Assembly (NCBI GenBank): GCA_019054805.1
Contig: JAHQIY010000004.1
Coordinates: 7,820,501 to 7,884,500, forward strand
Origin: Brachionus manjavacas
Taxonomy: Eukaryota > Rotifera > Eurotatoria > Ploima > Brachionidae
Length of the DNA: 64,000 nucleotides
Direction of reading: 5' to 3'
Shown here: in pieces, positions 12,410 through 59,024 of the stretch
Numbering within the stretch: the first letter of the stretch is position 1
Layout: every line of letters starts with the position of its first letter
Translations under genes and position numbers: made by a program
The notes under the pieces: generated by a model
Database searches by the model: none
Seen by the model: only the letters and a program-made list of their open reading frames with translations
Told to the model about the DNA's origin: nothing

Positions 12410-14094
12410 TTAACAAGAACCTGAATTTGATTGACTTGAGTTAAACGATTCAAAGCCATAGCTGTTTTGGTGAAGATTTGAATTTTCATTTAAAGTCACG
12501 CATGACTCACAAATTGAGCTAATAATCGATTGATCCGTAAAGAGACTTTCAGAATCATCAGCAAAGGTAAAATCATCTTGGTCGCTTAAAGTTTCGGTAT
12601 CATCATGTGGCAACAAATCTTCATCGTAGCACACTTGGCTCAATTTGATGTCACTCGGATCGATTAGATTAAGTATTTTTCTCAATTCGACAATTACAGA
12701 ATCAATGTGTGGCGCTTCACTTGGACTACGCTTCGATTCCACAGTACACATTCGAATTTGCTTGAACAAGTCCATTGTTTTGTGCATGTGCACAATTGGC
12801 AAGTCGATCAAATTGGACAGAGTCAAATTGGCCGATTGGGTCTCGTTGAGAAACAGTCTGAACTGCTTTGAGTGCAACACAAGATCGTTGAGCAAGTCTT
12901 TGGCTTTGGGGTATCCTTTGACATAGGTGCAGAACGCTTCTTTGAAAAGACTCATTTTTTGTGTGTACAATTGACCAATTTTGGTGTACAAATCGTAGGC
13001 CGACCACTTGTCCATTGATCGCAAAAGTTTTCGCTTATGATCAAAATTTTCTCCACATTTTGAAACAAAGTAAAGTAGTCTTGCTGCTGAATGAAAAAGC
13101 CTCTCAATGGTCTTGAGAATGTGGCCACTGACAGACTCAAAAACGAGACAAAATTGGCCTCGATTTCGATCAAGCTTCCGATCAGCTGTGTCCTCATTTG
13201 GTTGAATTTGTCCGCTTTCATTGACTCATAGTTCATTGTAGACTTTAGCTGATCTTTTAGTTTTGATGTAGAATGCAAAGTTAGGTCACACTGTGAGTAA
13301 GAATTGGTCGTGTTTGTCACAGTGGTAATTGACAAATTCGACTGCATATTTGCACCATTGGACTGTGTCACTTTTTCACTTGATTCATTGTATCGAGACA
13401 ATGTTTCGTATCCAGTGTCTGCTCCGGACTCACATTTTGCCATTTGGCCCATTCGGCAACATTCTCTGCTGCACACAACATACTCGTTTGCTTGGAGACT
13501 TGAGCATTTGTTTGTGCACTCGGGCTCTTCAATATAAGTTGCCGAAATGGTTGTGTTTGTTGGCTGAGCACACGACAACCACAACGATGGCCGCAGCCAT
13601 TTGGATATTAGGCTGACATTTTTTTTTCTTTTTATTTCATTTTTTTGGTCGGTTTGTCTAGTTTCGCCAAAGAGAGGCTTGGCGTGAAATTTTTTAACAT
13701 TTTCTTCCTTGTCGAACAATCGACGGTAAATTGTTAATTTTAGAAAATCAGCATTGTTTGATTTTATCAAAGTTAAAATGGATTTTATTCTAGCTCGACA
13801 ACAGTTTACATCATTGACCTTGATTATCAAGTCTCCTTTTCTCAGGCCTGATTTATCAGCCACACTATTTTGAACCACAGCTTCCACATGACTCGGACAA
13901 TAGCCCGCTACTACAAAGCCATAGCAGTTGCTTGACTTTAATTCATCTTTGGTTTGCTTAAGACTCAATTCAATTTGTTCGTAGACAACACTTTTGACTT
14001 TTACATATTTTGGCATTTTTTTGCCTCTGGTCTGGGCCTTACTAACCATTGGTACTGGATTGGATTTTTTGCTATTAAAAAAATTCAAAGACAT
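12410..14094 (-). pseudogene. PDZ-DH (RhoGEF-like) gene, copy A, frameshifted
   Basis: First of two paralogs. The frame from 14094 encodes MSLNFFNSKK, a PDZ-like domain (about residues 26-115, with GYCPSHVEAVV, GLRKGDLIIKVNDV and LTIYRRL), a Cys-rich linker and the first part of a DH domain. It then breaks at an A run near 13023-13026 that is one base shorter than in copy B. The other frame resumes at LRSMDKW and runs through the rest of the DH domain to an acidic and Ser-rich tail, stopping at 12410. DH domains load GTP on Rho-family GTPases; no PH domain follows. Both halves are otherwise clean, so the shift is either very recent or an error in a homopolymer. Bases 12597-13618 are nearly identical to copy B, whereas the PDZ part and the C-terminal tail are diverged. 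Confidence 0.8.
12597..13618 (-). repeat. Homogenised DH block, copy A
   Basis: By eye, this block matches 20928-21950 with two substitutions (13535, 13608) and one single-base deletion (A run at 13023-13026). Similarity ends abruptly on both sides, inside the coding sequence. Confidence 0.9.
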
Positions 14095-20821: not shown

Positions 20822-22375
20822 TCAATGACTTTCATTTGAAACTTTTGATGATTCGGTTGAATGGAAATATGAATTTTCAATGCAAGTAGAGATGGATTGA
20901 TTAAAAAAGGTAATAAACGAACTGTCTGTATCATCATGTGGCAACAAATCTTCATCGTAGCACACTTGGCTCAATTTGATGTCACTCGGATCGATTAGAT
21001 TAAGTATTTTTCTCAATTCGACAATTACAGAATCAATGTGTGGCGCTTCACTTGGACTACGCTTCGATTCCACAGTACACATTCGAATTTGCTTGAACAA
21101 GTCCATTGTTTTGTGCATGTGCACAATTGGCAAGTCGATCAAATTGGACAGAGTCAAATTGGCCGATTGGGTCTCGTTGAGAAACAGTCTGAACTGCTTT
21201 GAGTGCAACACAAGATCGTTGAGCAAGTCTTTGGCTTTGGGGTATCCTTTGACATAGGTGCAGAACGCTTCTTTGAAAAGACTCATTTTTTGTGTGTACA
21301 ATTGACCAATTTTGGTGTACAAATCGTAGGCCGACCACTTGTCCATTGATCGCAAAAAGTTTTCGCTTATGATCAAAATTTTCTCCACATTTTGAAACAA
21401 AGTAAAGTAGTCTTGCTGCTGAATGAAAAAGCCTCTCAATGGTCTTGAGAATGTGGCCACTGACAGACTCAAAAACGAGACAAAATTGGCCTCGATTTCG
21501 ATCAAGCTTCCGATCAGCTGTGTCCTCATTTGGTTGAATTTGTCCGCTTTCATTGACTCATAGTTCATTGTAGACTTTAGCTGATCTTTTAGTTTTGATG
21601 TAGAATGCAAAGTTAGGTCACACTGTGAGTAAGAATTGGTCGTGTTTGTCACAGTGGTAATTGACAAATTCGACTGCATATTTGCACCATTGGACTGTGT
21701 CACTTTTTCACTTGATTCATTGTATCGAGACAATGTTTCGTATCCAGTGTCTGCTCCGGACTCACATTTTGCCATTTGGCCCATTCGGCAACATTCTCTG
21801 CTGCACACAACATACTCGTTTGCTTGGAGACTTGAGCATTTGTTTGTGCACTCGGGCTCTTCAATAAAAGTTGCCGAAATGGTTGTGTTTGTTGGCTGAG
21901 CACACGACAACCACAACGATGGCCGCAGCCATTTGGATAATAGGCTGACACTTTTTGCACTTTTTATCTTTTTATTTATCAATGGCTTAAGAAATTTTTT
22001 ATTTTCATCTGATATTATTTTTGACAGTTGATAGGCTTTTTCTGAGTTTTTCAGTCGTCTGTAAATTGTTAAATTTATTTTTCCATCCACAGGTTTCAGC
22101 AAGCTGTTGATTGTTTTCAAAGTGGCTCTGTAGCAATTGACTCCGTTTATTTCAATTAACAAGTCTCCTCTTTTGATTCCGTTTGTCTCCGCGCCACTGT
22201 CTTTTGACACATGTTGTACGTAGCAAGGACAGTATCCGGCTAGTGAAAATTCATTAAGGCTGCTTTTGATCTCCTGTTTGCCTATGCACACTTGCAGGCG
22301 ATGATAGACCAGATTTTTCAATTTAACGTATTCGGCCTGGGCCGCTCTGGAAACATTTTCTTGTTTGTTTGACAT
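20822..22375 (-). CDS. PDZ-DH (RhoGEF-like) protein, copy B, intact
   Basis: 517 codons in one exon, start MSNKQENVSR at 22375. A PDZ-like domain at about 20-105 has GYCPCYVQHV, GIKRGDLLIEINGV and LTIYRRL. A Ser/Thr-rich linker at 140-280 includes a Cys cluster (ECTNKC, CSRECCRMGQMAKC). A DH-like domain at about 285-463 has QLIGSLIEIEANFVSFL, RPLRGFF, TLFQNVEKIL, ENFLRSM, KIGQLYTQ and DLLNDLVLHSKQFRLFL. DH domains activate Rho-family GTPases, and a PDZ domain would tether the protein to membrane or junctional partners. No PH domain follows, which is unusual. The tail after HDDT (484-517) differs completely from copy A. It is intronless although nearby conserved genes have many introns. The middle 1.02 kb is nearly identical to copy A. 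Confidence 0.82.
   Translation of the reverse strand: MSNKQENVSRAAQAEYVKLKNLVYHRLQVCIGKQEIKSSLNEFSLAGYCPCYVQHVSKDSGAETNGIKRGDLLIEINGVNCYRATLKTINSLLKPVDGKINLTIYRRLKNSEKAYQLSKIISDENKKFLKPLINKKIKSAKSVSLLSKWLRPSLWLSCAQPTNTTISATFIEEPECTNKCSSLQANEYVVCSRECCRMGQMAKCESGADTGYETLSRYNESSEKVTQSNGANMQSNLSITTVTNTTNSYSQCDLTLHSTSKLKDQLKSTMNYESMKADKFNQMRTQLIGSLIEIEANFVSFLSLSVATFSRPLRGFFIQQQDYFTLFQNVEKILIISENFLRSMDKWSAYDLYTKIGQLYTQKMSLFKEAFCTYVKGYPKAKDLLNDLVLHSKQFRLFLNETQSANLTLSNLIDLPIVHMHKTMDLFKQIRMCTVESKRSPSEAPHIDSVIVELRKILNLIDPSDIKLSQVCYDEDLLPHDDTDSSFITFFNQSISTCIENSYFHSTESSKVSNESH
20928..21950 (-). repeat. Homogenised DH block, copy B
   Basis: Counterpart of 12597-13618. The block is GC-richer than both flanks and includes the whole DH domain and the Cys-rich linker. 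Similarity drops at GGCTGACA on the PDZ side and at GTATCATC on the tail side. Confidence 0.9.
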
Positions 22376-23179
22376 TGTTATCTAAAATATTTCTCATAAG
22401 CTTAATAAAACATTATTTATATTGCGATCTTTGAAAAAATTAAAAGTTGAACATCCGACAATTAAACTTGGACTTTTTACACAGTCCAACCCAACCGAAA
22501 GCAGAGGGATTGAGTTTTCATGAGAACTCAAACTAATTAAAAGTTTGCAAAATACGTTTGAGTTTATTTGATAGTAATTTATTGCTCTATCCCTACCAGT
22601 CGGTATCAATAACCAACTTTATGTTAGTAATTAACTTAAAAGAGATAAATACCGATGCTGTATAGTTTAGGCCAGAATTTTTCTGTTATGCGACAGGGTC
22701 AAATTAATTTAATTGAAATTTAATTGACCGAAACCCAGTACTTGTTTGTCCAATATTAACTAACACATGATGGTTTATCTTATCTATTATGAAAAAAAAA
22801 ATTGAAATCTATTTTTGCAGCTATTAGTTATTCATAAACTAAACAAGAAACTTTACACTTAAGATTAAAGGTAAAAGTCAAGTTGCTTGAGATCGAGATA
22901 AATTATTAAACCTACCTTATTATTTCTTTCTTTCCTGAACCTCTAGCTATTTCTACTTAACGTTTTTAATTTTATTTCTTATTACTTGGACTAATTTTTC
23001 CTTTTTTTTTCTTTTTAATTGATTTTATTTTTCAGACTCATTTATTAAAATATTAATTTTGGAAGACTCTTTTTCACTAATTTCCTTAAAATGGTCTGTA
23101 AATTTTAGTTTCAGGTCAAATTTGATAAGAAGGAATTTAGGTTCATGGGTTAAGGGGATAGGTTCAGATACGATATAAA
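22376..23179. other. Upstream flank of RhoGEF copy B
   Basis: 800 bp without a recognisable gene, presumably 5' UTR and promoter of copy B. It contains the short palindrome GAGTTTTCATGAGAACTC near 22511. There is no visible similarity to the upstream flank of copy A. Confidence 0.4.
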
Positions 23180-23640
23180 GGTCTATCGAGTATTTTCTCT
23201 GCTAATTGCTTCTAAGCTCAGCTGTAGTAAAGACAGAATAACAGGTTTTCGATTTTTTAATTTTAAAGGCCCCTTTTTATACAAAAGGTGACCTAATTGC
23301 CAACTGCTCTTTGGACGATTTTTTAATCTCTTTTTTGGATATGCTTGTGTACCAAATACAAAGATCGTCTGCAAAAGGTGCAACTTGTACATCTGACAGA
23401 AAACTTTTTACTATATGACTAAAATATAATATGAAAATTGTAGGTGAAAGGCAGCTATTTTGTGGAACACTAGCCCTGATTGACTTGGGTCTCGAAAATG
23501 AGCCATTTTGAAAAATTTGGAAAGTTCGATTTTCTAGAAACTTAGTGACTTAGTAATTTTAGTGCATTTGGCTTTAAAAAGGCCGCCACATCAACTACCT
23601 GGAACGGCAAAAAAATCAGGTTGTTCGAATTTAAAAAAAA
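23180..23640 (-). mobile_element. LINE reverse-transcriptase relic around the YADD box
   Basis: On the minus strand the frame around 23480-23260 reads SFSRPKSIRASVPQNSCLSP, then TIFILYFSHIV, then VQVAPFADDLCIWY. These correspond to the G-VPQGS-LSP-LF-LY and F/YADD catalytic boxes of non-LTR reverse transcriptases. Upstream (toward 23600) VVDVAAFFK fits the D-x-x-x-AFD box. Frameshifts and stops show it is dead. Confidence 0.7.
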
Positions 23641-24664: not shown

Positions 24665-24752
24665 AAGTTGTGTTTACTCTAATTTTTTTGCTCAAATATT
24701 CATTTTTTTCTATTAATTTATTTTAAGTTTGGTTAATTCATTTGATTCTAAA
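24665..24752 (+). repeat. 88-bp direct repeat, first copy
   Basis: From AAGTTGTGTTTACTCTAA through TTTGCTCAAATATTCATT to GTTTGGTTAATTCATTTGAT. It matches 26646-26734 with about seven differences by eye. Confidence 0.65.
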
Positions 24753-26645: not shown

Positions 26646-26734
26646 AAGTTGTGTTTTCTCTATTTTTTTTTGCTCAAATATTCATATTCTTCTATTAATT
26701 TATTTTAAGTTTGGTTAATTCATCTGATTTTAAA
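26646..26734 (+). repeat. 88-bp direct repeat, second copy
   Basis: Counterpart of 24665-24752, ending TTAATTCATCTGATTTTAAA. Flanking bases do not match beyond these limits. Confidence 0.65.
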
Positions 26735-42699: not shown

Positions 42700-44060
42700 T
42701 AATTTTGGTTTATGAGAATTGGTCAAGACATGGGAAAGCATAATCATTTCATAAAGTTGCTTCCCTTGATGCGGAAAAAGCTTTTGACAAGGTTTGGAGA
42801 GATGGTTTATTCTTTAAGCTACTTCCAAGAATGATCTTTTGTCTTTGGGTACTCTTAAAAAAATACTATGACTCAGCTAAAGCTGTAGTATGTCTTGATG
42901 ATAATATTTCGGAACTATTTCAGGTTGAATGTGGTGTAAAGCAGGGTGGGTACTTATCCCCTTTCCTTTTCAATATCTTTATAGACGATTTAATCGATGA
43001 ATGCTTAGAAAAGAAATTAGGTGGTATTTTTAATAATCTCAATATCTCAATAATTGTTTATGCTGATGACATAATCCTCATCAGTCCAGTTGACAGTCAT
43101 CTTCAAATTTTACTTGATATCTGCAATAACTATGGTCCTAAATGGAGAATAAAATTTAACCCAATAAAATCTAAAATAATTACGTTTGGCCCTATCCTCT
43201 TTAACTGTGATTTCTTCTTGAGTGGTAAAAAGTTGAATATAGCTCCAAGTATAGAATATTTAGGATTCGTTGTCGACTCCAATCTAGACTTTAACTTTTT
43301 TGCAATTGAAAAATTTAAACAAGTTCAGAAATCATTCTTCTCAGCTTCTTTTTTGTTAAACAAGATGAGTCATATTTCCCCTTCTCTAAAGAGTTTCATT
43401 TACAAAACATTTTGCCTTTCTCAATTCACATATGGTCTTGAAAACTTAACTCTAGACACAAAAACCCTCAAAACTCTAAAAATTAATCAAAACAACCTTG
43501 TTATACAAATGTTTAATCTAAAATCTAATTGTCACATTTCTGGAATCCTAAAAGTTCTTAGACTTTTTAAAATTGATCAGCTCTATCTTTTTTACAAGAT
43601 GTCTTTTATCACTTCAATTAGGTTCAATCAGTTATCTTCTCTAATATTTAAGTAATTATGTTATATTTAAGTAATTATGTTATGTTATATTTCCAACAGC
43701 TCTCCCCTTTCTTTTGGAAATGATCTCAAGCATTTGTTACAATTCACTAATAAAAATCTAGACTCAATATTAGCAAATATTGGTCAACTGAAGTTGGATC
43801 TTAAGCGGCAGTTCTACATTCGTGACGGCATCTCGGATTCAATTGAGCTTTGTTTGAATAACTTAAGATTTAAATCCTTTCAAAACCTTCTAAACGAACT
43901 AATCAAACCAAGGTAGATCAGTTCACTTCTTCTGGTCCAAAGGAGTTTATAAATTGTATATTTTTCTTTTCTACTTTAGAATTGTACTTTTTTTTTTTTT
44001 TTTTAAACTTTATTTTAATTTTTACTTCTCCTGATGGAGGTTAATTTGAATCAAATAAAT
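42700..44060 (+). mobile_element. Second LINE fragment, reverse transcriptase
   Basis: An open frame from about 42756 to 43655 reads KVASLDAEKAFDKVWRDGLF, then VECGVKQGGYLSPFLF, IFIDDL, IIVYADDIILISPV, and downstream IEYLGFVVDSNLDFNF. These are the catalytic boxes and post-palm region of a non-LTR reverse transcriptase. The sequence style (GVKQGG, YADD) differs from the neighbouring fragment at 41490, so it is a different lineage. A short direct duplication (TTAAGTAATTATGTTATATT, 43648-43690) interrupts the frame; the remainder continues to a stop at 43914-43916. A T-rich stretch and a CTCCTGATGGAGG hairpin with AAATAAATAA mark the 3' end near 44060. Confidence 0.82.
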
Positions 44061-47482: not shown

Positions 47483-48242
47483 ATTTTTTGGATTTAATTA
47501 TTTATTTTGTGTGGCCTCAGCGTTAGCTGTTTTAGCCAAGAATAAAAAGAATAGAATAAAGGTTATTGAAAATTAAAGTTAATAATGTTTAAATATACAA
47601 AATATATAAATATAATTAAATATAATAAATAAAATTTTTTAGTCAAAAAATAATAAGACCAACGTAATAATTATTAAATAACTTTTTTAACTCCGCATAA
47701 AAATGTTTTAAAGTCTTTTAAATAGTGGTCATTCAAATATTCGTACTCTTCTTTCATTTCTTCAAAAAGTGGATTTTCGTTGAGGATTGCACTCAATGCG
47801 TAAGCTTCGTTAAGATCGGACATTCTATCTTCAACACTTGGTAACTGAGCTATCTTATTAAGTTCCTTTGATGGAGTATCGTATCTTAATTTAAAAATTG
47901 CTCTGATTGCTGCATTTTGGATTGCTTGTAGTTTTTTTTTTTTTTTTGATAGTCGAGTGAGAATAAATGACGAGTAATCAATAACTGAACGAATTAACGA
48001 GGCATAGATTGATGTTAGTGTTTTAGATGTGAGATTCCATGTCTTGTTTGAAATAATCTTAATGCAATTTAGTCTGTTTGTACATTTTTTCCTTAATTTG
48101 TCAACATGCTTTTGAAAAGTTAGTTTCTTATCAAAAGTTATACCTAAAAACGTTGGGTTTGGGTTATAAGTTAACTTCTGGTTGTACATTTTAAGTGCGA
48201 TCTTATTTGAAATATTTTGGTTGCAGTTTGAAAAAATAATAT
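47483..48242 (-). mobile_element. 5'-truncated LINE with target-site duplication
   Basis: Minus-strand frame 48189..47674 (171 codons) reads FLGITFDKKLTFQKHVDKLR, then YASLIRSVIDYSSFI, LQAIQNAAIRAIFKL and PSVEDRM. This is the C-terminal part of a CR1/jockey-like LINE ORF2 and is intact to its stop. The 3' end reads GGCTAAAACAGCTAACGCTG, AGGCCACAC, then AAATAAATAATTAAAT. A 21-bp direct repeat beginning ACTGTTGAAAAAAATTTGGG flanks it (47462-47482 and 48243-48263), giving precise limits. It is a relatively recent insertion, because the duplication is perfect. Confidence 0.85.
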
Positions 48243-48263
48243 ACTGTTGAAAAAAATTTGGGT

Positions 48264-48660: not shown

Positions 48661-51620
48661 CTTGTTAAATACAGGTAAGTCTGTATCTATTACTGAGGGT
48701 TCGAGTGAATTAAGTTGTTGGAATGCGAATGCTACATTGTTAACTCCAGGGAAGTTGAATGAATTGAGATCGTTGTGTATAGAGAAGATCTATGATGTGA
48801 TGTTTATCTCTGAAACTTGGTTCAATGAACTAAGTGTAAATAACATTGAAGGCTACGAATGTTTCCGAATAGATCGTAATGAAAATATAGGAGGTGGAGT
48901 TTGTATTTATGCTGGGGGTTTCTGTTTCCTTCAACTTCATGGAAATCGATAACAAACAACACAATTAAAATTAAATTGAGCAAATCTGGCGTTTAGCTGA
49001 ATCGAGGAAGGAAAAACTTCTGCTGGGGTGCATGCATTGACCAAAAATAATAAGAAGCAGTAAGGGGGTAACAGAAAGTGATGAAACGCAAATGGTGAGA
49101 GATAGAGAGATCATCAAATCGATATAAATGGCGAATAATTTAGTAAAACGGGGGTTATTTAGTGGATTATTACCGGTTGCTGATTTCAACTACAGTGAAT
49201 TGGACTGGAGTGATAACTTAGAGGCTAAAATATTAACGAAGACAGAGAGTGCGGCAGAATTCGTGAACTGTCTTAGCGAGGGGTTTTGGACTCAAAATGT
49301 CTGTTTTAAATACTTCTAGAAGGAACCATTTAAATTAACTAACATATTGGATCTAGTTATGGAGGCGCAGGAGAGAGTGGATAATCTAGAACCAGAAGAA
49401 ATCCTCGGTGGCTAAGAGAATGGTCATTTGAGTATGAGTTGGAGATACAAGATAAAGGAGAAGGTGAAAGAGTTTGGGGACAAGTAAAGGAGGAGTAAAT
49501 TCAGCTACAAGAAGGGGGACTATAAAAGCATGAAAAAATTCTTTGAGAGCATCAATTGGGAAGATACTCTTTGAGAGCATCCGCGATTGTTATAAAGAGT
49601 TCCTGAAAATATATAATGAAGAGTGTGATAGATTTATGCCAAAGATAAAAGTTGATGCGAATCGATGAATCCGGTCACCGTGGCTTACGAAGGATCTCAA
49701 ATCGTTGATGAGAATGAAGGGCAATTTATGGCAGAGCTGAGTGCAGGGCAACAAAATAGATACCGAGAAATATGAAGAGTACAAAGAAATAAGCAAATTT
49801 ATTAAAAGGTCATAAACACTAATATCTCGGTTTATGAAATAAAGCTCACAAGTAATTAGTATAAATCGCCCTGAACGTTTCCTAAGAATCCAAAGGCACT
49901 ATACAGCTACATGAAGAGCAAGCAGAAGGTGAGTGAGAAAATTGGGTCTTTAACTAAGAAAGACGGGAGTACCACAACAGAAAGAAAGCGGAGATTTTGA
50001 ATGAAGCATTCGAAACAGTCTTTTCGGTAGACGATATTGACTTTCAGGAATTTGAAATGAGAATCAAGTTCTTGTGTGATGAAGAAATATTGGAGAATAG
50101 AGATAAGCAATCAAAGTTGGAGAAACAAAATTGCGATAAGTCACCAGGCGGAGACGGGGTGTCACAAATGGTAATAAAAAGTTGCTTTCAAGAGTTGTCA
50201 AAAGCACTCGCTATCATTTTCAGCAAATCGTTAAATGAGAGAGACGTACTGAATGAAAGAAAGAAGCGAACATCTTCTCATTGTACAAGAAAGGGAGTAA
50301 ACTTAAGGCGTCAAATTACAGACCAGTTTCTTTGACATCATTATTTTGTATAGTAATTGAAGGAATAGTTAGAGATTAGATAACAACACATGTGAACAAT
50401 TACAATTTGATTTCTAGTAGACAGCATGGTTTTTTAAAACTTAAGGCATGTGTAACTTACCTTTTGGAGTGTCAGCATTTATTGTCGATGAGCGTGGGTA
50501 ATAATAAGTGGGTGGATGTACTATACACGGACTTGAGAAGGCGTTTGATAAAGTTTCATGTAGGAAACTACTCATCAAGTTAAGAGCGTATGGAATATGT
50601 GGTAAATTGCTTGACTGGATTTTAGCATTCTTGAGCTATAGAAGGCAAAAGGTGGTTATGGGCACGTCGGATTCAAGGTGGAGGAATACAACATGTGGCG
50701 TGCCTCAAGGATCATTATTAGGACCCTTACTTTTCGTGATATATAACAATGACTTGCCAGAAAAAATAAATAACATAATGCAGATGTACGCTGATGATAG
50801 TAAGGTGATTTCAGAGGTGAATGAAATGTCAATATCAGAATTACAAGCAGATAAAAATGAAATAAATAATTAATTAATATTAAGAATGTGATTTCAAGTG
50901 ATGGAAAGCATAGTAAACAAGTAGAAGCGGCGGTATCTAAAGCTAACAGTGCTTTAGGTAGAATGAGGAAAACGTTCAAATATTTTAATATAGAATTGTT
51001 TAAAAAACTGTATCCAGCATGTTTTTCGTCAGAATGCATTAAGAATTCGCTTCGGCGGTATGGAATTCTATAACAAGAAGTGAAATAATTAAGGTAGGGA
51101 GAATCCAGAAAAGGGCGACTAAGATGGTAATATAATTAAGAGGATTAGAGTACGTATATAGACTTAGGGAGCTTGGGTTTACAGACCTGGAAACAAGAAA
51201 GAAAAGAGGGGACTTAATACAAATAAATAAGATAAGGAAAGGGTTCGAGAGGGGAGATTTGGATACCAGAGAGAATGAGGGAGTAAGTGAAGGGACAAGC
51301 AGGAGATACAATAGCCAAATAAGAAGGGAAAAGCAAGATGGGACCATGAGGGATAAGTTCTTACTTAATCGAATAGCTACAACCTGGAACATTTTACCCT
51401 CTGAAATAGTAGGGACTGATACGGTGAATCATTTCAAGGCCAAAATTGATGTACACATGAAGTCGGAGACCTGGAGTAGATCTGTTTACAGAATCAGATA
51501 CTGAGGAACTTTGACTTAATGCAACGAAGGTTGCAAGCTGATAAAGTGCAGCGTTATGAACTGCACTCACACTTATGTGTTATAGCTCACACTACTCCTA
51601 CTACTACTAGTACTTTTTTC
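48661..51620 (+). mobile_element. Long decayed CR1/jockey-like LINE, endonuclease plus reverse transcriptase
   Basis: Domains appear in order with frameshifts. The AP-endonuclease covers 48700-49310 (LSCWNANATLLTPGKLNELR, MFISETWFNE, GGGVCIYA, VADFNYSELDW). A linker with KSPGGDGVSQMVI is at 50145-50180. The reverse transcriptase covers 50395-50873 (ISSRQHGF, YTDLEKAFDKVS with a frame change, GVPQGSLLGPLLFVIYNNDL, MYADDSKVI). The thumb and C-terminus cover 50920-51504 (SKANSALGRMRKTFKYF, LRELGFTDLETRKKRGDLIQ, FLLNRIATTWNILPSEIV). The stretch is visibly GC-richer than its surroundings. The 3' end holds two hairpins (51521-51534, 51545-51567) and an ACT-rich microsatellite to about 51612. Confidence 0.88.
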
Positions 51621-58006: not shown

Positions 58007-58122
58007 ATCTTAAATCTCTTAAATAAAAAATTTAAAATAATTTTAGAAAAAAATAAAAATTTTCTTATTCACTGTTTTTCCATATTGTTTTAATTTAAAG
58101 AACTCTTTTAAAGTACGAAAAT
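58007..58122 (+). repeat. 116-bp direct repeat, left copy (target duplication)
   Basis: Starts ATCTTAAATCTCTTAAATAA and ends AAAGTACGAAAAT. It differs from the right copy (58909-59024) at one base (CATATTG versus CATGTTG). It borders the A/T tail of the LINE fragment exactly. Confidence 0.9.
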
Positions 58123-58908
58123 TTTTTATTTATTTATTTAAATATAATTTGGGAGAGACTCCCAGGCAGTTTGGAATGGAACTTAGTCCTCCCTTTCAGC
58201 CTCTTGCTTGAAGAAACATAAAAAAAATTAAAAAGTTTGAATTTAAAATCAAAATAAAATAGAAACAAAAGTGTTTTGTTAGCTTGGAATTAAAAGTTGA
58301 AAGATATTGTTAAGTGATGACCAAATGTACTTTTTGAAGATTTGCATAAAAAATTATAGAATAAAAAATTATAAAATAAAAAATTATAAGTAAAGTTAGT
58401 GTTAGTTTAGTATTTTTGAATAATTAGATCGAATAAAGTTTTGAATCTAGGATTTGTTGTTTGGACGTAATCGTTAAGCTCTTCTTGGATTAGGCTGTGG
58501 CTCCGTTTGACCGAAATGAAATTTGCGATCAGTTTATTGAGTCTAGTAACAAGTAAGTCGACTTTGAGTTTTTGGTGAATATCACTGATTCTTGTTTTTA
58601 AAGGGAAGTATTGTATGATTCGAAGAACACGGTTTTGGAGTTTTTGAATGTCGCTTCTGATTCGTTGCGTGTCTGTCATTAGTGGGATGAAGATGTAGTC
58701 AAAATTGGAACGGATTAGGCTTTTGTAGACTATAAGCGAGAGATAAGTATTGTTTTTTAAATTCATACCCTTTAATTTTCTAATCATATTTATCTTGCTA
58801 AGGACTTTTTCTTCAACCATTGAAAGGTGCTTTTTGAAGTTTAGCTTCGGGTATAGTTCGTGGCCTAAGAATTTTGGAAACGGTTCAATTGGAATCATGA
58901 TGTTATCG
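58123..58908 (-). mobile_element. 5'-truncated LINE flanked by 116-bp duplications
   Basis: The minus-strand frame 58898..58407 (163 codons) has FLGHELYPKLNFKKHLSMVE, then YKSLIRSNFDYIFIPLM, IQKLQNRVLRIIQYFPL and RISDIHQKLKV. This is the C-terminal region of a LINE ORF2, intact to its stop. Downstream on the same strand lies a family-2 tail (about 58215-58130: AGGACTAAGTTCCATTCC, then CAAACTGCCTGGGAGTCTCT), ending in AAATAAATAAATAAAAA at 58123. The element is cut at its 5' side in mid-ORF, the usual result of incomplete target-primed reverse transcription. Confidence 0.85.
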
Positions 58909-59024
58909 ATCTTAAATCTCTTAAATAAAAAATTTAAAATAATTTTAGAAAAAAATAAAAATTTTCTTATTCACTGTTTTTCCATGTTGTTTTAATTTAA
59001 AGAACTCTTTTAAAGTACGAAAAT
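58909..59024 (+). repeat. 116-bp direct repeat, right copy (target duplication)
   Basis: Counterpart of 58007-58122. Beyond both limits the flanks stop matching (GAAATCTT versus TCGATCTT on one side, AAATTTTT versus AAATAAAA on the other). Confidence 0.9.

Follow-up and report, generated by a model that had tools for sequence, protein, structure and literature searches.

Structure of the insertion locus

The 64,000-nucleotide stretch of Brachionus manjavacas DNA analysed here (hereafter, the window) contains a 786-bp insert (58123–58908) that represents the 3' end of a minus-strand LINE truncated at its 5' end. The insert is flanked by two 116-bp direct repeats, one on the LINE 3' side (58007–58122) and the other on the LINE 5' side (58909–59024), both given on the same strand as the insert. 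The repeat search of the window placed their starts 902 apart at 99% identity; the two units differ at a single base (115 of 116 identical), which is A or G in the context CCAT(A/G)TTG. This exact arrangement had been proposed in a first-pass annotation of the sequence and was confirmed by our repeat comparison. Both ends of the LINE abut the repeats exactly, with no ambiguity from shared bases: the tail of the insert ends in AAAAA before ATTTTCG, and the outer flank preceding the other unit ends in GGTTTTT, which makes the boundaries unambiguous.

In the sense orientation, the insert consists of the C-terminal frame of ORF2, a 3' untranslated region with the conserved sequence GGGAGGACTAAGTTCCATTCCAAAC, and an AAATAAATAAATAAAAA tail. 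The ORF2 portion (58407–58907, minus strand) is restricted to the C-terminus, but its frame is intact, with 166 codons followed by a stop, and it is 49% identical over 163 residues to the ORF2 relative P0001. The conserved LINE 3' end (58144–58240, minus strand) includes the 25-base core at 58169–58193, and the tail (58123–58143, minus strand) is made up of AAAT repeats ending in AAAAA, a tail type common to the insert and its sister copies.

A genome search with the 116-bp unit returned two matches in the 114,169,980-base assembly, both at this locus; the search skips very common words, and the rarity of the unit holds only at that sensitivity. Because there are only two matches, the unit does not look dispersed, and the idea of an independent dispersed repeat, which the first-pass annotation had named as the finding that would speak against its reading, was rejected. 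A 115/116 repeat lying directly against a LINE at each end is not a chance arrangement, and the view that the two repeats behave as a target-site duplication of the LINE is supported. With 116 bp, the insert falls into the class of long target-site duplications (>20 bp), its unit having been found at this locus only and a single pre-insertion target being seen only in a sister case, L044 (see below).

The direct-repeat scan of the whole window (repeats of at least 30 bp, 60 bp to 9 kb apart, low complexity excluded) yielded four entries, one of which is the 116-bp pair. Two others are the halves of one long LTR-like pair, namely two adjoining pairs of near-identical direct repeats (12597–13624 and 20928–21956) that together span approximately 1,028 bp, lie 8.3 kb apart, and have the appearance of LTRs belonging to a young LTR retrotransposon. 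The remaining entry is a 70-bp direct repeat (24683–24752 and 26665–26734; 94% identical) around 1.9 kb of sequence in which no element was recognised by eye. Four further stretches of the window (23046–23549, 42765–43616, 47812–48243 and 50176–50840) were also matched by LINE ORF2 proteins in a search with seven queries, and the same scan found no close-flanking direct repeat of at least 30 bp around any of them.

Identity and relatives of the element

The same genome contains a full-length relative of the element (L011), which is 68% identical to the window element over 812 columns. Its ORF2 encodes a reverse transcriptase domain (RVT_1, E=6.9e-39) and an APE-type endonuclease domain (Exo_endo_phos_2, E=4.3e-16) according to Pfam, as expected of an APE-type LINE. 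The 5' truncation, the fixed 3' end with a tail and the flanking target duplication found in this family are likewise those of an APE-type LINE. ORF1 of L011 contains cysteine-rich, CCHC-like stretches by eye, and Pfam gave no match for it.

Among the best 120 of the 7991 scored candidates for ORF2 relatives, the top one was P0001 (51% identity), and the closest with an organism name came from Brachionus calyciflorus (P0007; 43% identity over 97% of the query) and B. plicatilis (P0012; 34% identity over 48% of the query). The ORF2 proteins of these two are homologous to that of the element. The name 'mobile element jockey' appeared among the sources of the more distant matches in the same set. 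With up to 3 mismatches allowed, the 25-base core matches 123 places in the genome (100 listed) on many contigs, and the flanks of the family copies that we retrieved differ from each other, indicating that the family occupies dispersed places and not one fixed site.

Another LINE family in the genome, which ends in an (ACT)n tail, gave 370 3'-end matches at up to 3 mismatches; all 100 among the matches listed were exact, and the family looks young and abundant. An (ACT)n-tailed LINE in L008 is surrounded by a seeming 67-bp duplication, which we dropped from consideration as the target repeat extends beyond the upstream copy. Matches to the L008 repeat recur at steps of approximately 6.46 kb on two contigs (C26 and C48), which suggests a tandem array of units of that size.

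Target-site duplications in sister copies

The five closest sister copies, which are 97–100% identical to the window element over 86–518 bp, carry duplications of 13 bp (L002/L012), 15 bp (L003/L013), 14 bp (L004/L014), 12 bp (L005/L015) and 17 bp (L008/L016) at the longest reading; thus, the closest relatives of the window element act like ordinary LINEs. The full-length relative L011 also has a duplication of 12 bp.

To the window element we added 66 other copies (L011–L016 and L032–L091), so that 67 of the 123 3'-end matches were sampled. In all 66 copies, the 420-bp 3' flank was compared with up to 1.3 kb of upstream sequence in a gap-tolerant test. Four outliers (L033, L044, L047 and L077) scored between 44 and 170, and the remaining 62 copies all stayed below 24. 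In a second test, applied to the 55 of the 66 copies that have a defined 5' junction, duplications were callable in 24 copies, 20 of which are short (9–17 bp) and four long, the long ones being the same four copies. The window element was not part of this run, and its 116 bp comes from the separate repeat comparison; when it is included, 25 of the 56 tested copies are callable, with 20 short and five long duplications. Long duplications therefore account for 5/25 callable copies (95% interval, 7–41%), 5/56 tested copies (3–20%) and 5/67 copies looked at. No callable length between 20 and 43 bp was found among the 25 callable copies. The first-pass annotation had regarded the presence of only short duplications in other copies as evidence against its reading, an outcome that was largely, but not entirely, obtained.

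Several features of the survey bear on these figures. No duplication was callable in 31 of the 56 tested copies, so these data capture the true length distribution only in part. The threshold for calling a duplication (approximately 17 bits or more) was chosen by eye with the scores already known, and it lies above the 95% point of the null, 15.7; three copies with 15.7–15.9 bits (L032, L055 and L069) fall below it. Null scores of 82 and 72 were produced by L044 and L077, in both of which the shifted test region lies within the long repeat, and the next-highest null score of any copy is 21.7 (L089), so that chance may account for a few short calls. The duplication of L036 is 15 bp in one reading and 19 bp in another. 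Eleven of the 66 copies, whose 5' ends are undefined, were left out of the 25/56 count (L056, L060, L064, L066, L068, L073, L079, L082, L084, L087 and L090); three of them (L079, L084 and L090) have 13-bp candidates, and none has a long duplication in the gap-tolerant test. Although notable, the 20% share of long duplications in the callable set is based on five cases, and it is probably an overestimate, given that long duplications would stay visible longer in old copies.

Other long duplications and paralogous empty sites

The duplications of the four other long cases measure 44 bp in L033 (44/44 identical), 56 bp in L047 (53/56 identical, or 62 columns at 92% in the gap-tolerant comparison), 168 bp in L044 (165/168 identical) and 191/197 bp with gaps in L077 (187 identical of 197 columns). 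All five long cases, including that of the window, are 5'-truncated, as are nearly all of the short ones. The L047 unit occurs at its own locus only, apart from two partial matches of 40 bp. As for L077, query positions 1–105 of the unit have approximately 30 other matches at 87–94%, and positions ~109–123, which adjoin the LINE, are matched only by the two copies at its own locus (40 of 151 candidates scored).

The 168-bp unit of L044 sits in a dispersed repeat (all 40 scored candidates matched, out of 70), which by itself would cast doubt on this case. Two nearby loci, L092 (C9:2073250-2073850) and L093 (C9:2080590-2081190), contain the L044 flanks and one 168-bp unit without the LINE, and the flanks are nearly identical to those of L044 over the 213–219 bp retrieved on each side of the unit. 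These paralogous empty sites provide direct evidence that the insertion turned one 168-bp target into two. It is possible in principle that L092 and L093 arose later through deletion by recombination between two units; the two L044 units, however, have three bases in common that differ from both empty loci, which fits the duplication of one precursor. The three near-identical copies lie within 20 kb of each other on contig C9 (2.062, 2.073 and 2.081 Mb) and represent a local duplication.

Another repeat was seen in L050, in which a 47-bp repeat (1359–1405 and 1631–1677; approximately 60 bp by eye with a gap) surrounds an insert of approximately 220 bp with an ATT-rich end. Partial relatives of this insert occur in L078 and L048, and the repeat may be a long duplication generated by another retroelement.

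Comparison with known systems

R2-type elements are defined by a restriction-like endonuclease and the lack of an APE domain, and R9, a rotifer element, presumably belongs with them. The first-pass annotation had named an rDNA-specific R-type element of rotifers as a parallel for the window case. The rDNA-specific R9 of a bdelloid rotifer is cited with a stagger of 126 bp (PMC6895275) and thus resembles the window locus, with its 116 bp, in having a duplication of >100 bp. In other respects the parallel proved weak. The full-length relative of our family has an APE-type endonuclease domain; the 3'-end matches of the family are not confined to a fixed rDNA site but lie on many contigs with differing flanks; and instead of a constant length of approximately 126 bp, the duplications measure 9–17, 44, 56–62, 116, 168 and ~191 bp. 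Another rotifer LINE, the non-LTR element Hebe of the bdelloid Adineta vaga, has three intact copies flanked by 7–12 bp in the covered portion of PMC2861651.

The system closest in behaviour is the class of long target-site duplications described in cultured cells for APE LINEs, among them L1 of humans and ZfL2-2 of zebrafish, in which target-primed reverse transcription (TPRT) gives mostly short and some very long duplications (PMC2666801, PMC4245944 and PMC5223499, each as far as covered). Duplications of >20 bp are treated as a defined class of LINE inserts in the covered sections of PMC4245944, according to which one HeLa data set contains many long duplications with a distribution unlike those of another HeLa line and HCT116. 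This was read there as a host effect, the difference between HeLa data sets indicating that the pattern varies with the host cell. Our cases differ from those in cultured cells in that they are natural insertions in a rotifer genome, some of them old enough that their two units have diverged, and in that 5/25 callable copies are long.

As for frequency, one of 25 ZfL2-2 inserts in DT40 cells was long (1228 bp) in the data given in the covered part of PMC2666801, and our 5/25 with >20 bp is not significantly different (Fisher p = 0.19). Against a set of 66 L1 insertions with two exceptions, taken from the covered text of PMC4245944, the same count gave p = 0.016, although this does not compare like with like, because the L1 set consists of full-length elements and its exceptions are not stated there to be long. 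Duplications of >100 bp make up 3/25 of our callable copies (12%; interval, 3–31%), close to the 'never exceeded 10%' given for HeLa cells in the relevant passage of PMC5223499, where repair-complemented cells had 3/9 duplications of this size. A further survey was limited to 5–30 bp, and its authors, in the portion covered, said that longer in vivo duplications need more study (PMC2912911). In the part of the literature searched, we recognised no description of long LINE target duplications in a monogonont rotifer.

Formation of the 116-bp duplication

We consider it quite probable that the 116-bp duplication arose by TPRT of an APE-endonuclease LINE with an occasional distant second-strand nick. 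The endonuclease would have made the first nick at the present 59024/59025 boundary, and the nicked end would have primed copying of the LINE RNA from its AAAT-rich tail. Copying would have stopped after approximately 0.8 kb, resulting in the 5' truncation; the other strand would have been cut 116 bp away, as against the usual 9–17 bp, and fill-in of the 116-nt stagger on both sides would have generated the duplication. In the sister copies, whose tails are of the same kind, the duplications are 12–17 bp long, which indicates that the same machinery normally makes short staggers. Most likely, host repair made or selected the second nick, or a nick already present served as such; a fixed LINE-protein geometry is the less likely determinant. 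The interpretation in the first-pass annotation is thus supported in part: the repeats behave as a target-site duplication, long duplications recur in a fifth of the callable copies, and the one in L044 is accompanied by single-unit empty sites. The order of the nicks, the fill-in and the maker of the second nick are what we infer.

An endonuclease-independent origin appears unlikely; in this case the LINE copy would have been taken up at a widely staggered break or two nicks already present, and the 116 bp would have been duplicated when the gaps were filled. Its evaluation involves a weight matrix for the first nick, built from all short sites but L052 (19 of 20), which holds at most 0.37 bits per position. 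On this weak matrix the window site scores −0.9 bits (null mean, −2.3; null 95%, 1.9) and does not look like a preferred site, as capture would have it. The long sites as a group, with scores of −3.9 to 2.6, are nevertheless not poorer than the short ones, since 2/5 (L044 and L047) and 2/19, respectively, exceed the null 95%, and such low-information contexts neither show nor exclude that the long sites were cut by the endonuclease of the element itself. The 5' truncation of all five long cases would also agree with capture but does not discriminate, since it is shared by nearly all short cases, and the window insert retains a complete tail, as in ordinary TPRT.

A 116-bp tandem duplication that existed beforehand and was hit by the LINE precisely at the junction of its units is very improbable, because it would require insertion at an exact base, independently at five loci, and because the paralogous empty sites of L044 carry one unit and not two. 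We give hardly any credence, and even less than to a prior tandem duplication, to a fixed lineage trait of the R9 kind, in which duplications of >100 bp would be the rule or typical. The first-pass annotation had thought of such a trait of the integration machinery, and long duplications do recur within the family; however, the short duplications of 20 of the 25 callable copies, including the five closest sisters and L011, are incompatible with its being typical, and the APE-type endonuclease of L011 also argues against it. The window case is best read as a natural instance of the known long-duplication class, that is, as a minority outcome of TPRT and not an R9-like constant.

Regarding a possible host contribution to the distant second nick, human cells lacking XPA, XPC or XPD have mostly duplications of >100 bp, and repair factors have been proposed to influence the second nick, as reported in the covered part of PMC5223499. 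By analogy, host repair factors are a possible cause of the distant second nick in this genome as well. We found matches to Rad10 (ERCC1; one) and Rad4 (XPC; two) in the genome, all above the family cut-off. A simple loss of nucleotide excision repair (NER) is therefore unsupported as the host cause as far as these two domains, the ones looked for, are concerned. More tentatively, and with more doubt than confidence, we suggest that the family has a second integration outcome, in which approximately one-fifth of APE LINE insertions would be completed from a nick 40–200 bp away, the short and long classes being separated by an interval without cases. This would represent a natural germ-line, host-set bias of second-strand cleavage comparable to that in NER-impaired human cells.

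Implications

The way in which LINEs select and make the second nick is poorly understood, and in the literature covered the data on long duplications come from cultured cells. A natural family in which short duplications occur alongside long ones, with paralogous empty sites for one long case, provides material on whether the distance between the nicks is set by the element or by host repair. If the long class truly approaches 20%, LINE activity would also seed duplications of 50–200 bp in this genome.
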